A stretch of DNA of 64,000 nt from Saccharomonospora piscinae (lineage in GTDB: Bacteria > Actinomycetota > Actinomycetes > Mycobacteriales > Pseudonocardiaceae): NCBI RefSeq assembly GCF_005862235.1, contig NZ_VCEK01000004.1, positions 633,869 through 697,868 on the forward strand, read 5' to 3'. Below, piece by piece: positions 28,301-37,300 of the stretch. How positions within the stretch are numbered: position 1 is the first letter of the stretch; the number at the start of each line of letters is the position of its first letter. Below the pieces are notes generated by a model. It searched no databases, was not told where the DNA came from, and was given only the letters and a program-made list of their open reading frames with translations. The position numbers and the translations under genes are program-made.

Positions 28301-31300
28301 GTTGCAGCTGTTCGATGCCGCATTGGGCAGCGACCGGGCACTCGTGGCCCCGATCGACATCGACCTGTCCGCGCTCCGTTCGCGCGCTACCGCACCACTC
28401 TTCCGCAAGCTCATCCCGGCACCACAACGCCAAGCCACGCAAAGCGACAGCGGACTGGCAGCGGAACTGCGACAGCTCCACGACGACGAACGCAGGAAAC
28501 GAATCCTCGACCTGGTGTGTGGCCATGTCGCCGTGGTGCTCGGGCACGCCTCGGGCGAGGCCGTCGAGCCGCACCGTGCGTTCACCGAGCTCGGTTTCGA
28601 CTCGCTCACGGCGGTGGAGTTGCGGAATCGGTTGAATGCGGTGTCGGGTTTGCGGTTGCCTGCGACGTTGGTTTTTGATTATCCGACGCCGTTGGTGTTG
28701 GCGGAGTTCGTGGTCGGGGAGCTTGTGGGTGAGCAGGCTGGGCCTGTGGTGGTGGCCCCGACTGTGGTGGGTGATGACGAGCCGATCGCGATTGTGGGGA
28801 TGAGTTGTCGTTATCCGGGTGGGGTGTCGAACCCGGAGGACTTGTGGGATTTGGTGGCGTCGGGTGTGGATGCGATTGGCCCGTTCCCGACCGACAGGGG
28901 TTGGGACATGGACGGGGCTGGTGGGTTCCTGACCGGTGCGGCTGAGTTTGATGCGGGGTTCTTTGGGATTTCGCCGCGTGAGGCGGTGGCGATGGATCCG
29001 CAGCAGCGCCTGCTTTTGGAGGCGTCGTGGGAGGCGTTGGAGCACGCCGGTATCGACCCGACTGGGATTCGGGGTTCCAGTACGGGTGTGTTCGCGGGGT
29101 TGATGTATCACGATTATGGGGTTGGCAGTGAGGCTGCTGAGGGCTCGAGCGGGACCGGCAATTTGGGCAGCGTTCTGTCCGGTCGGGTGGCGTATTCGTT
29201 TGGGTTTGAGGGTCCTGCGGTGACGGTGGATACGGCGTGTTCGTCGTCGCTGGTCGCTCTGCACTGGGCTGTGCAGGCGCTGCGTTCGGGTGAGTGTTCG
29301 ATGGCGCTGGCTGGTGGTGTGACGGTGATGGCCTCGCCGGGCACATTCGTGGAGTTCGACCGCCAAGGCGGGCTAGCGGGCGACGGCCGGTGCAAGTCGT
29401 TCGCGTCGTCGGCGGATGGCACGGGCTGGTCCGAGGGCGTTGGTGTGCTGGTCGTGGAGCGTCTTTCGGACGCTCGGCGGTTGGGGCATGAGGTGTTGGC
29501 GGTGGTGCGTGGGTCTGCGGTGAATCAGGATGGCGCGTCGAATGGTTTGACGGCGCCGAATGGTCCGTCGCAGCAGCGGGTGATCCGCCAAGCCCTGGCC
29601 AACGCGGGGTTGAACCCGGCCGAGGTGGATGCGGTCGAGGCGCACGGCACGGGCACCACTTTGGGTGATCCGATCGAGGCGCAAGCACTGTTGGCGACCT
29701 ATGGCCAGGATCGTGATGGGGATCGGCCGTTGTGGTTGGGGTCGATCAAGTCCAACCTGGGTCATACGCAGGCTGCTGCTGGGGTTGCTGGTGTGATCAA
29801 GATGGTGCAGGCCATGCGCCACGACACCCTGCCCCAAACCCTGCACGTGGATGAGCCCACGCCCGAGGTGGATTGGTCTGCGGGTGCGGTGAGCCTGTTG
29901 ACTGAGCCGACAGAGTGGCCGGAGGTGGACCGGCCGCGTCGGGTGGGTGTGTCCTCGTTCGGCATCAGCGGCACCAACGCCCACATCATCCTCGAACAGG
30001 GAACGGCCGTCCCCTCGGTGGCCGAGCGGGAACCGGTCGTCGCATCCCCGGCCGTCGCATGGGTGCTGTCGGGTAAGTCGCCCGCCGCTCTCGCCGCGCA
30101 GGCCGCGTCCCTGCTCGCGCAGGTCGACGACGACACGAACCCCCGCGCGATCGGCTACTCGCTCGCCACCGGGCGCGCACGATTCGAGCAGCGTGCCGTC
30201 GTCGTCTCCGACCGGATCGACGAACTCCGCGCGGCGCTGGGCGCCCTCGAGGCAGGGACGGCACACGACGCACTCGTCACCGGGACGGCGACGACGCCGG
30301 AAGCGGATGCCGTGTTCGTCTTCGCCGATCGCGAGTCCGGCTGGCTCGGTACCGTCACGGACCTCCTCTCCGCATCACCCGTCTTCGCCGGCCGGTTCTC
30401 CGACTGCGCCTCGGCGCTCGCCCCGCACACCGGCTGGTCCCTCGACGACGTCGTGCGGTTCGAAGCCGACGCGCCGGAGCCCGGCCGTTCCGACGTGTCC
30501 CGCGCCGCCCGCTGGGCGGCGATGGTGGCGCTCGCGGACCTCTGGCAGGCGTGCGGAGTCCGGCCTGCGGCCGTGGTCGCGGACGGAATCGGCACACTCG
30601 CCGCCGCCGTCGTGGGCGGCGCGATGGACCTGGCGGAAGCCGCCGAGCTCGTCGCCTCCGGCGCCGACCACAGCACGCCCGAGGCGTCGGAACCACCGCT
30701 GTACCCACTGGACAGCGAGGCCGCGGAGCGGCTACTCGGCGACGGAACCCGCGTCGACATCCAGCCGAGCCACGAGACCGGCGAGCACGTGCGACTCGTG
30801 CAGGCACTGGCCGAGGCACATGTCCACGGCGTCGCCGTCGACTGGAGCCAGGTACTCGCCGGACCAGGTGCCGACCGGGTCGAGCTGCCCACCTACGCCT
30901 TCCAGCGGCAGCACTTCTGGTTCAAACCGGCCAAGCGCGGCTCCGCGATCGCCTCGGCGGGGCTGCGCGTCGTCGAGCACCCGCTGCTGGCGTCCGAGAT
31001 GACGCTGGCGGACGGCGCGGGTCTCGTGCTGACCGGACGCCTGTCGACGGAAACGCACCCCTGGCTGGCCGACCATGCCGTGTCGGGCACGGTGCTGTTG
31101 CCGGGCGCCGCGTTCGTCGAACTGGCGCTCACCGCCGGAGAACGGGTCGGATGCGCGGCACTGGCCGAACTGACCCTCGAAGCGCCGCTCGTGCTGCCCG
31201 ACGACACCGCGCTCGCCGTTCAGGTGTTCGTCGCCTCGTCCGACGACGACGGCGCGCGTGAGGTCACGGTTCATTCGAGCCGGGCCGACGGTGCCGAGGA

Positions 31301-34300: not shown

Positions 34301-37300
34301 GATCGAGGCGCAAGCGGTGCTGGCCACCTACGGCCAGGACCGCGACGAGCCGCTGTGGCTGGGCTCGGTCAAGTCGAACTTCGGGCACACGCAGGCGGCC
34401 GCGGGCCTGGCCGGTGTGATCAAGATGGTCCAGGCGATGCGTCACGGCGTGCTGCCGAGGACACTGCATGTCGACGAGCCGACTCCCGAGGTGGACTGGT
34501 CCTCCGGTGCCGTGCGCCTGCTGACCGAGCAGGTTCCGTGGCCGGAGATCGCTCGCCCCCGGCGGGCCGGGGTGTCGTCGTTCGGCATCAGCGGCACCAA
34601 CGCACACGTCATCCTCGAAGCACCGGCGCGCAACGCGACCGCCTTCGTCTTCCCAGGCCAGGGTTCCCAGCGCGTGGGCATGGGCCGCGACCTCTACGAG
34701 ACAGAGCCCGTGTTCGCGGCGGCGTTCGACGAGGTGTGCGCCGAGCTGGACCGCAACCTCGACCGGCCGCTGCGCGAGGTGATGTTCGGCGACGCCGACG
34801 CGCTTGACCGGACCGAGTTCGCCCAGCCCGCGCTGTTCGCGTACGGGGTGGCGCTGTTCCACCTGCTGCGCCACCGGGGCATGACCCCCGACGTCGTCCT
34901 GGGGCACTCGGTGGGCGAGTTGACGGCGGCCCACGTCGCCGGTGTCTGGTCGCTCGCCGACGCCGCCAGGCTGATCACCACCCGTGGCCGGTCGATGCAG
35001 AATCTGCCCGAGGGCGGGGCGATGATCGCCGTCCGCGCGGCCGAGGACGAGGTGCGTCCGCTGCTGACCGACCGGGTCTCGGTCGCGGCGGTCAACGGGC
35101 CGAGCTCCGTCGTCCTGTCCGGAGACGAGGACGCCGTGCTGGCGGTGGCCGCGCACTTCGAGGAACTCGGCAGGAAGACGACGCGGCTGCGCGTCAGCCA
35201 CGCGTTCCATTCCGTGCGGATGGAGCCGATGCTCGACGAGTTCCGTGCGGCCGTCGCGGACACGGACTTCCGCGACCCCGAGATCCCCGTCGTCTCCACG
35301 GTGACGGGCGAGAGCAGCACGATCGCCGACATCGCCGACCCCGGCTACTGGGCGCGCAACGCGCGCGACACCGTCCGGTTCGCCGACGCCGTGCGCGCGG
35401 CACACGGCGCGGGAGTGACCACGTTCGTGGAACTCGGTCCCGGCGACGTGCTCGCCGGGCTCGCACGCGCCTGCCTGAGTGATCCGGTGGAGGCCCTGGC
35501 CGTCACCGGCGCGTCGGCCGCGCCACAGGCAGCGGGCAGGACTCTGCCGGTCGTGCCGTGGGTGGTGTCGGCCAAGTCGGAGCCCGCCCTGTCCGAGCAG
35601 CTCGGCCGCATCCGGTCGCACGTGGATGCCCAGGCCTGCGATCCGGTGGACGTCGGCTTCTCGTTGACCGCACGGTCGGTCTTCGCGCACCGTGCGGTCC
35701 TGCTGGACGGCGACGAGGTCGCGCGGGGGAGCGCGGCGCAGGGCCGGTCGGCGTTGCTGTTCACCGGCCAGGGTGCGCAGCGTGCCGCGATGGGGCGTGG
35801 CCTGTACGAGGCGTATCCCGTGTTCGCGGAGGCGTTCGACGCGGCCTGCCCCGTGAAGGACGTGGTCTTCGGCGACGACGACAGGCTGCACGAGACGGAG
35901 TTCGCGCAGGCAGGGCTGTTCGCCCTGGAAGTGGCGCTGTTCCGGCTGCTGGAGTCCTGGGGCGTGAAGCCCGACTTCCTGCTGGGGCACTCCATCGGCG
36001 AGCTGGCGGCGGCACACGTGGCCGGTGTCCTCTCGCTGGAGGACGCGCTGACGCTGGTCGCGGCGCGGGGCAGGCTGATGCAGGCCCTGCCGCCCGGCGG
36101 CGTCATGGTGTCGCTGCGGGCCACCGAGGACGACGTCACTCCGTTGCTGTCCGACGGCGTGTCGCTGGCTGCGGTGAACGGTCCGCGCTCGGTGGTGCTG
36201 TCCGGGGACGAGGACGCCGTCACCGCGGTGGTGGAGCAGCTCGACGGCGGCAAGCCCAAGCGGCTCACCGTCAGCCACGCGTTCCACTCGGCCAGGATGG
36301 ACGGCATGCTGGCCGAGTTCCGCAGCGTCGCGGAGCGCCTGACCTTCCACGAGCCCCGAATTCCGCTGGTGTCGAACGTGACCGGCCGGCTCGCGGGCCC
36401 GGAGGTGGCGACGGCCGAGTACTGGGTGCGGCACGTGCGCGAGACGGTTCGCTTCGCCGACGGCCTCGCCTGCCTCGGTGAGCAGGGCGTGACCACGTTC
36501 GTCGAACTCGGACCGGACGCCGTCCTGTCGGCGATGGGCCGGGAATCCCTGCCCGACGCCGTGTTCGCGGCCACCCTGCGCCAGGGCCGCGCGGAGCCGC
36601 GGACCACGCTCGGTGCGCTGGCACAGCTGTACGTCCACGGCCACCCGGTCGACTGGACGGCGCTGTTCGAGGGAAGCGGAGCCCGGTACACAGCGCTGCC
36701 CACCTACGCGTTCCAGCGCGAACGGTTCTGGCCCGAGGCCACGTCCCGGCACGGGGAACAGCCGACGGAGGAATCGCGGTTCTGGGACGCCGTGGAACGC
36801 GCCGACCTCGCCGAACTGGCGGGCACCCTCGACGCCACCGAGCGCGAGGCGCTGAGTGCGGCGATGCCGGCTCTGTCGTCCTGGCGCCGCAGGTCCCGCG
36901 AGGCTTCCACGGTGGACTCGTGGCGGTATCACGTGACGTGGCGGCCGGTGAAGCTCACCGGCGGGGCGGCGCTGTCCGGATCGTGGTTGGTGATCGCGGG
37001 CGACGAGCACCCGCTCGCCGGGGCGATGCAGGCCGCGGGCGCCACCGTGACCACCGTGCCCGACCCGACCGCGCTGGACGACGTGACACTGCCCGGTGAC
37101 CTGGCCGGTGTCGTGTCGATCACGGCGACCGACGCCCGGTCGGCAGCCGGTCTCCTGCGTGCGCTGGCGGAGGCCGAGGTCCACGCTCCGGTGTGGTGCC
37201 TCACCACCGGGGCGGTGTCCGTCGGCCGGTCCGACGACCTCCGCGATCCCCGGCAGGCACAGGTGTGGGGACTCGGCCGGGTCGCCGCGCTCGAACTGCC

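Follow-up and report, generated by a model that had tools for sequence, protein, structure and literature searches.

Adjacent loss and gain of acyltransferases in a modular polyketide synthase of Saccharomonospora piscinae: a likely case of an acyl carrier protein loaded from the next module

The domain order acyl carrier protein (ACP)-ketosynthase (KS)-acyltransferase (AT)-AT-ketoreductase (KR)-ACP has been described for the starter modules of the myxobacterial soraphen, myxothiazol, myxalamid, chondramide and miuraenamide synthases, the first AT of which has been put forward as the one that loads the ACP ahead of the KS (PMC10051162); elsewhere, loading of the AT-less modules 2 and 5 of the cis-AT haliamide line has been ascribed to a free-standing AT (PMC6274090), and in trans-AT polyketide synthases (PKSs) the ACP is loaded by an AT from outside its module (PMC11907408). 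The locus dealt with here belongs to Saccharomonospora piscinae: the window, i.e., the whole stretch of 64,000 nucleotides that was analysed (contig NZ_VCEK01000004.1, positions 633,869 to 697,868), lies within a modular PKS cluster on one (C6) of the 11 contigs of a 4.9-Mb genome, and the arrangement falls within one of its open reading frames, 4272-43151 (+), encoding a 12,959-amino-acid (aa) modular PKS of eight KS domains/modules, where module 7 (M7) retains a fragment of an AT (AT7) and module 8 (M8) carries two ATs (AT8a and AT8b). Judging from the sequence, AT8a is likely to malonylate the ACP of M7 (ACP7), with M7 remaining an active elongation module.

The likeness to the myxobacterial starters, as those are presented in PMC10051162, extends to the ACP-KS-AT-AT order, its presence on one polypeptide and an upstream ACP having no AT of its own, whereas the upstream ACP of those starters bears the starter unit at the chain start, and that of the window is an internal elongation ACP which follows its own KS and an AT fragment, the extra AT showing the malonyl motif HAFH (this comparison was made by published domain order rather than by sequences, with the place of the KS-AT linker domain, LD, falling outside it). 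M7 and M8 do not stand at the start of the chain, being modules 6 and 7 of the eight in their protein, upstream of which other PKS genes lie. With the haliamide line (PMC6274090) the window shares a cis-AT setting having an AT-less module, the difference being that a stand-alone AT was proposed there and a fused neighbouring AT is at hand here; unlike what is described for trans-AT PKSs (PMC11907408), the AT in question is fused into the next module of the same protein, the other modules are cis-AT and an AT fragment remains in place. Apart from a FabD-like frame, no discrete AT gene was seen for the AT-less module, and AT-less modules are not the rule in the window’s cluster (33 KS and 34 AT matches, one dead AT included). 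The first-pass annotation, which knew of no described cis-AT PKS having the arrangement, thus overlooked the ACP-KS-AT-AT order already known from the starters in PMC10051162; what seems to be new is its occurrence inside the chain and its pairing with a dead AT. Neither an internal ACP-KS-AT-AT order nor a link between such an order and a dead AT was found described in searches of an open-licence full-text library, which is weak evidence of absence, subscription journals being mostly outside it.

Domains were called by models built from the window’s cluster and its counterpart in Actinoalloteichus caeruleus DSM 43889 (a member of the same family but of a different genus), with the module numbers taken over from the first-pass annotation. 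The 12,959-aa protein has five dehydratase (DH)-KR modules in succession, the last of them being M7, whose order is KS-LD-AT fragment-post-AT linker-DH-KR-ACP, and the six modules other than M7 and M8 all show the KS-LD-AT order. AT7 matches only positions 1-114 of the 319 of the Pfam profile Acyl_transf_1 (68.8 bits; 67.9 bits in the genome search) and aligns, in the AT of the type I modular PKS 6iyr, with residues 125-244 and next only with 427-471, where the post-AT linker begins: approximately the first 120 AT residues are kept and approximately 180 are absent, the catalytic His included. Within the fragment GQGSQ has become DRESG and GHSxG has become ADGIG, and the HAFH/YASH stretch with the catalytic His is gone. 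The AT that was lost had been a methylmalonyl-type one, as indicated by 116.2 bits with the methylmalonyl model vs 55.7 bits with the malonyl one (models made from 17 methylmalonyl-type and 43 malonyl-type ATs of the two clusters); the fragment also falls within the methylmalonyl part of the AT tree, where AT fragments are long branches that meet, which makes the model scores the better evidence of type. Compared with a canonical cis-AT module, M7 is devoid of a functional AT of its own between the linkers and has the motifs of its KS, ACP and reductive domains intact.

M8 reads KS-AT8a-LD-AT8b-post-AT linker-KR-ACP, and only a tether of a few residues separates the end of KS8 from AT8a. GQGxQ, GHSxG and HAFH, the last of which is given as a malonyl-CoA motif in PMC9673147 and PMC12843615, are all present in both ATs, and AT8a scores 187.2 bits with the malonyl vs 116.6 bits with the methylmalonyl model. 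The domain models and motifs therefore bear out what the first-pass annotation had read between 30003 and 36620 (the stretch reaching from LD7 through AT8b), namely AT loss and AT gain in adjacent modules of one polypeptide in the order ACP7-KS8-extra AT, the surplus AT being malonyl-type; its wording of an AT moved one module down, on the other hand, did not hold, as the fragment is methylmalonyl-type and AT8a malonyl-type, and the two fall into different tree clades. Two further candidate explanations were dropped: a 9-residue N-terminal gap of AT8b recurs in another AT of the cluster (G0_07) and gives no ground for calling AT8b dead, and the notion of AT8a being a recent copy of AT8b is unsupported in the window, where the tree joins AT8a to its A. 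caeruleus ortholog (100/98) but does not do so for AT8b.

The mechanism that these observations would fit is one in which M7 lost its own AT and stayed active, and AT8a, added between KS8 and LD8 on the same polypeptide, supplies ACP7 with malonate, AT8b continuing to load ACP8. Since ACP7 must visit KS8, on which it would dock for chain handover, an AT tethered right behind KS8 should be within its reach. As ATs are reported to have an approximately 10-fold preference for the cognate ACP vs a 100- to 10,000-fold one for the CoA substrate (PMC11907408), loading the ACP of a neighbour should also be easy. With a methylmalonyl-type AT lost and malonate supplied instead, the outcome was probably the removal of a methyl branch, so that the double bond made by M7 would be an unsubstituted one. 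A working M7 would bring the DH-KR modules contributing a double bond to five, and the product would be a pentaene without a branch at M7.

The first-pass annotation had named conservation of the dead-AT/extra-AT pair in homologous clusters as a check, and the pair is kept in the one such cluster found, that of A. caeruleus, the PKS genes of which are largely parallel to those of the window’s cluster and which likewise has a dead AT (GDGVG for GHSxG; 56-57% identity to the AT7 fragment of the window) followed by KS-AT-LD-AT. The two AT7 fragments are sisters in the tree at 100/100 and the two AT8a at 100/98. The A. caeruleus AT8b is placed with eleven other ATs of the A. caeruleus cluster (L028-L039), which together make up a set of twelve near-identical malonyl ATs indicative of concerted evolution, from which AT8a stands apart. 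Identity between the two species is 81% for KS7, 77% for ACP7 and 86% for KS8, both have the catalytic motifs of KS7, DH7, KR7 and ACP7, and the pairwise ratios of nonsynonymous to synonymous substitution rates (dN/dS), rough as they are at a dS of 0.6-1.2, amount to 0.29 for AT8a, 0.32 for AT8b, 0.13 for KS7 and 0.22 for ACP7. The AT7 fragment has diverged more quickly than the corresponding portion of four intact methylmalonyl-type ATs (identity of 62% vs 77-86%; dN/dS of 0.27 vs 0.12-0.22) and is nonetheless not evolving freely, so that it may still serve as a spacer. At E-values of up to 1e-38, the fragment was found only in the window genome and A. caeruleus (390 family genomes), and the next best KS8 after that of A. 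caeruleus reached at most 79% among the matches listed (334 family genomes, five candidates scored in each). In A. caeruleus, a frame change between the counterparts of KR6 and ACP6, either real or a sequencing error, splits the protein that is in one piece in the window.

Modules of the KS-AT-LD-AT type were also sought elsewhere, by their KS-to-AT junction without an LD, a search blind to the nature of the upstream module. At E-values of up to 1e-22, three of 394 genomes of the class matched, i.e., G554, G803 and the window genome itself. In G803 the module turned out to be an ordinary single-AT one with an LD; junction hits elsewhere, in G972, G966 and G1006, were likewise discarded, as single-AT proteins without an LD. 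G554 has a KSQ-type loading module (DAAQASS) in which the LD passes straight into the post-AT linker and ACP, followed by KS-AT-LD-AT; its two ATs are near-identical (branches of 0.048 and 0), which is the mark of a recent copy or conversion. Within the family of G554, the junction model matched 18 of 394 genomes, and among the 16 inspected (G1110 and G1141 were not, and G878 and G1150 not at each hit) only G554 had a tandem module in the parts inspected. In a plasmid collection 206 records matched, 6 of the 25 inspected having a tandem module. Four of these (Streptomyces sp. NBC_00376 and three S. atratus records) make up one lineage, where the AT has been excised from a DH-KR module and KS-AT-LD-AT comes next in all four of the records having the AT-excised module. 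The other lineage comprises Streptomyces sp. SAT1 and NBC_00557, with a dead methylmalonyl-type AT (101.9 and 116.2 bits with the methylmalonyl model vs 39.3 and 39.7 bits with the malonyl one, respectively) upstream of KS-AT-LD-AT, the gene of the dead-AT module sitting behind P450, ferredoxin and FAD-monooxygenase genes. Each of the three later lineages thus has an AT-less or dead-AT module immediately upstream of the tandem one.

Counted over 188 modules (from long open reading frames, with cut-offs of 600 to 2000 aa depending on the locus, of the two clusters, the other tandem lineages and the ordinary loci that the junction searches brought up, with G803, what remains of the G554 region and the reverse-search loci treated below excluded), all nine tandem modules, spread over four lineages, are immediately preceded on their own protein by a module that is AT-less or has a dead AT. 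Among the 96 adjacent module pairs 75 are ordinary-ordinary. A tandem module comes next in 9 of the 13 AT-less cases; two of the remaining four are proteins without an LD whose AT matches are split or partial, and the other two modules lie on a contig with broken frames. By simple arithmetic, one AT-less and one tandem module placed among 33 KS would be adjacent in this order by chance in about 1 of 32 cases. In each of the three later lineages the extra AT groups with other ATs of its own cluster, which suggests separate origins of the tandem modules, although gene conversion could mimic this pattern; a single ancient origin is unsupported, with the same reservation that conversion could hide an older one.

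Three other accounts of how M7 fares without an AT have to be set against this record. ACP7 could be loaded by another resident AT (AT8b, or AT6 upstream), with AT8a serving as a back-up or for ACP8: AT8b is malonyl-type too and has all its motifs, the only modest selectivity reported for ATs toward the cognate ACP (PMC11907408) would favor it just as well, and the sequence does not fix which of the two ATs of M8 meets ACP7. This is unlikely nevertheless, as an extra AT is found next door in four lineages and always at the same KS-proximal place, AT8a is under constraint, and both the window and NBC_00376 have the extra AT in spite of an intact AT one module upstream on the same protein. Still less probable, and in fact very unlikely, is that M7 is skipped or non-extending, with its KS or ACP only passing the chain on and the tandem AT being an unrelated duplication. 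A dead AT is the simplest sign of a dying module, and in SAT1/NBC_00557 the KS has been lost as well; M7, however, keeps the motifs of its other domains in both species, with a dN/dS of 0.13 for KS7 and 0.22 for ACP7, and the adjacency seen for every tandem module would have to be a coincidence.

Loading of ACP7 by a discrete AT in trans, be it the FabD of fatty-acid synthesis or an unrecognised one, is unlikely as well. It has a precedent in the stand-alone AT assigned to the haliamide modules (PMC6274090), and a gene for a 264-aa AT-domain protein lies near the cluster of NBC_00376, matching the Pfam profile only over positions 10-137 of 319. In the window genome, where the first-pass annotation had advised looking for a free-standing AT, the Pfam AT model gave 43 matches, just one of which occupies a separate short frame (376 aa), with fabD as its best NCBIfam match (172.5 bits, below the curated cut-off of 260.9) and an adjoining frame read as FabH-like; no dedicated free AT was found there besides this FabD-like frame, although one missed by Pfam or situated in an assembly gap would escape such a search. 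Loading in trans would, in addition, leave the extra AT next door unexplained. On balance, the proposal of the first-pass annotation that the surplus AT of M8 charges ACP7 has gained from conservation, from recurrence and from a genome search in which no dedicated free AT was seen, with AT8a remaining the probable rather than the demonstrated donor.

Several observations, on the other hand, speak against loading of ACP7 by AT8a. AT8a has neither an LD in front of it nor a post-AT linker behind it. Only two clusters of the window’s type were found, neither of them with an intact AT7, and none with an intact AT7 came up among the matches listed for KS8 relatives in the 334 family genomes. In SAT1 and NBC_00557 (L111 and L083) the gene of the dead-AT module begins in the LD, i.e., the KS is missing as well, hence this module cannot be a plain elongation module there and may be a starter-like or non-extending unit. 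Finally, a reverse search by the LD-to-post-AT-linker junction in 326 genomes of the family of G554 matched 15, G554 included; 10 of the 14 others were inspected (G873, G882, G885 and G935 were not), nine showing an AT-less junction and one (G1097) an ordinary module, and no tandem AT was present in the stretches fetched from these ten, the following module being broken or off-frame and not seen whole in L139, L140 and L142. Several of these cases resemble split modules or loading modules, and a free AT lies close to one of them; the AT-less modules next to which no tandem neighbor is visible (L139-L148) include loading modules of the KS-LD-post-AT linker-ACP order. Where such a neighbor is lacking, the missing AT can evidently be met otherwise or not at all, and the association is one-way: each tandem module counted has an AT-less one upstream, and the reverse does not hold.

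Product prediction for PKSs presumes that each module loads its own building block, to which KS-AT-LD-AT after an AT-less module is a recurrent exception; the reading of such clusters changes accordingly, in that the AT-less module would be scored as active and its extender taken to be that of the extra AT. It might even be, and this is put forward tentatively, with the chances slightly short of even, that next-door loading constitutes a third way besides cis- and trans-AT loading which arose several times by the same steps: an elongation or loading module would lose its AT (in two lineages a methylmalonyl-type one), and one of the malonyl ATs already in the cluster would be placed right behind the following KS, whereby a methyl branch is taken off without replacement of the AT in place. 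The arrangement would connect cis-AT modules to that of the myxobacterial starters, and offers both a natural route to an extender-unit switch and a natural test of the freedom of ATs toward a foreign ACP; if loading does proceed this way, such pairs would be a natural, portable means of changing extender units.

Table 1. Positions in the window of the domains and linkers of modules 7 and 8.
Feature	Position	Strand	Score or remark
KS7	28782-29996	+	catalytic motifs intact
LD7 (KS-AT linker domain), kept	30003-30302	+	hidden Markov model match, 85 bits
AT7 fragment, N-terminal part of a methylmalonyl-type AT	30288-30671	+	nucleophile motif gone (ADGIG)
Stretch without AT match, then retained post-AT linker	30672-30920	+	
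DH7 active-site motif	31074-31103	+	intact
KR7 (end approximate)	32238-32780	+	Ser and Tyr motifs intact
ACP7 (GFDSL), proposed acceptor of AT8a	33045-33266	+	
KS8	33354-34619	+	
AT8a, extra malonyl-type AT joined directly to the KS8 C terminus	34617-35546	+	216.5 bits
LD8, behind AT8a	35505-35771	+	
AT8b, resident malonyl-type AT	35727-36623	+	195.9 bits
M8 post-AT linker	36696-36731	+	
ACP8 (end approximate)	38286-38507	+	

Some other features of the cluster may be worth recording. At its start, outside the window (L015:2-3301), matches to an AMP-binding ligase, a KR and an ACP precede the first KS. In the 12,959-aa protein, the AT of module one (window position 6231; G0_10) has the specificity motif RAYH vs the HAFH of malonyl ATs, and another AT, also outside the window (C6:733614-734570; G0_30), shows GTSQG for GHSxG and DIPTHS for YASHS and pairs with its A. 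caeruleus counterpart at 100/100, being possibly an AT for an unusual extender or an inactive one. Antisense to the PKS genes there are very long open frames, at 4245-16574 (-, 4109 aa), 44361-51065 (-, 2234 aa) and 53286-63230 (-, 3314 aa), which are presumably a by-product of codon use.

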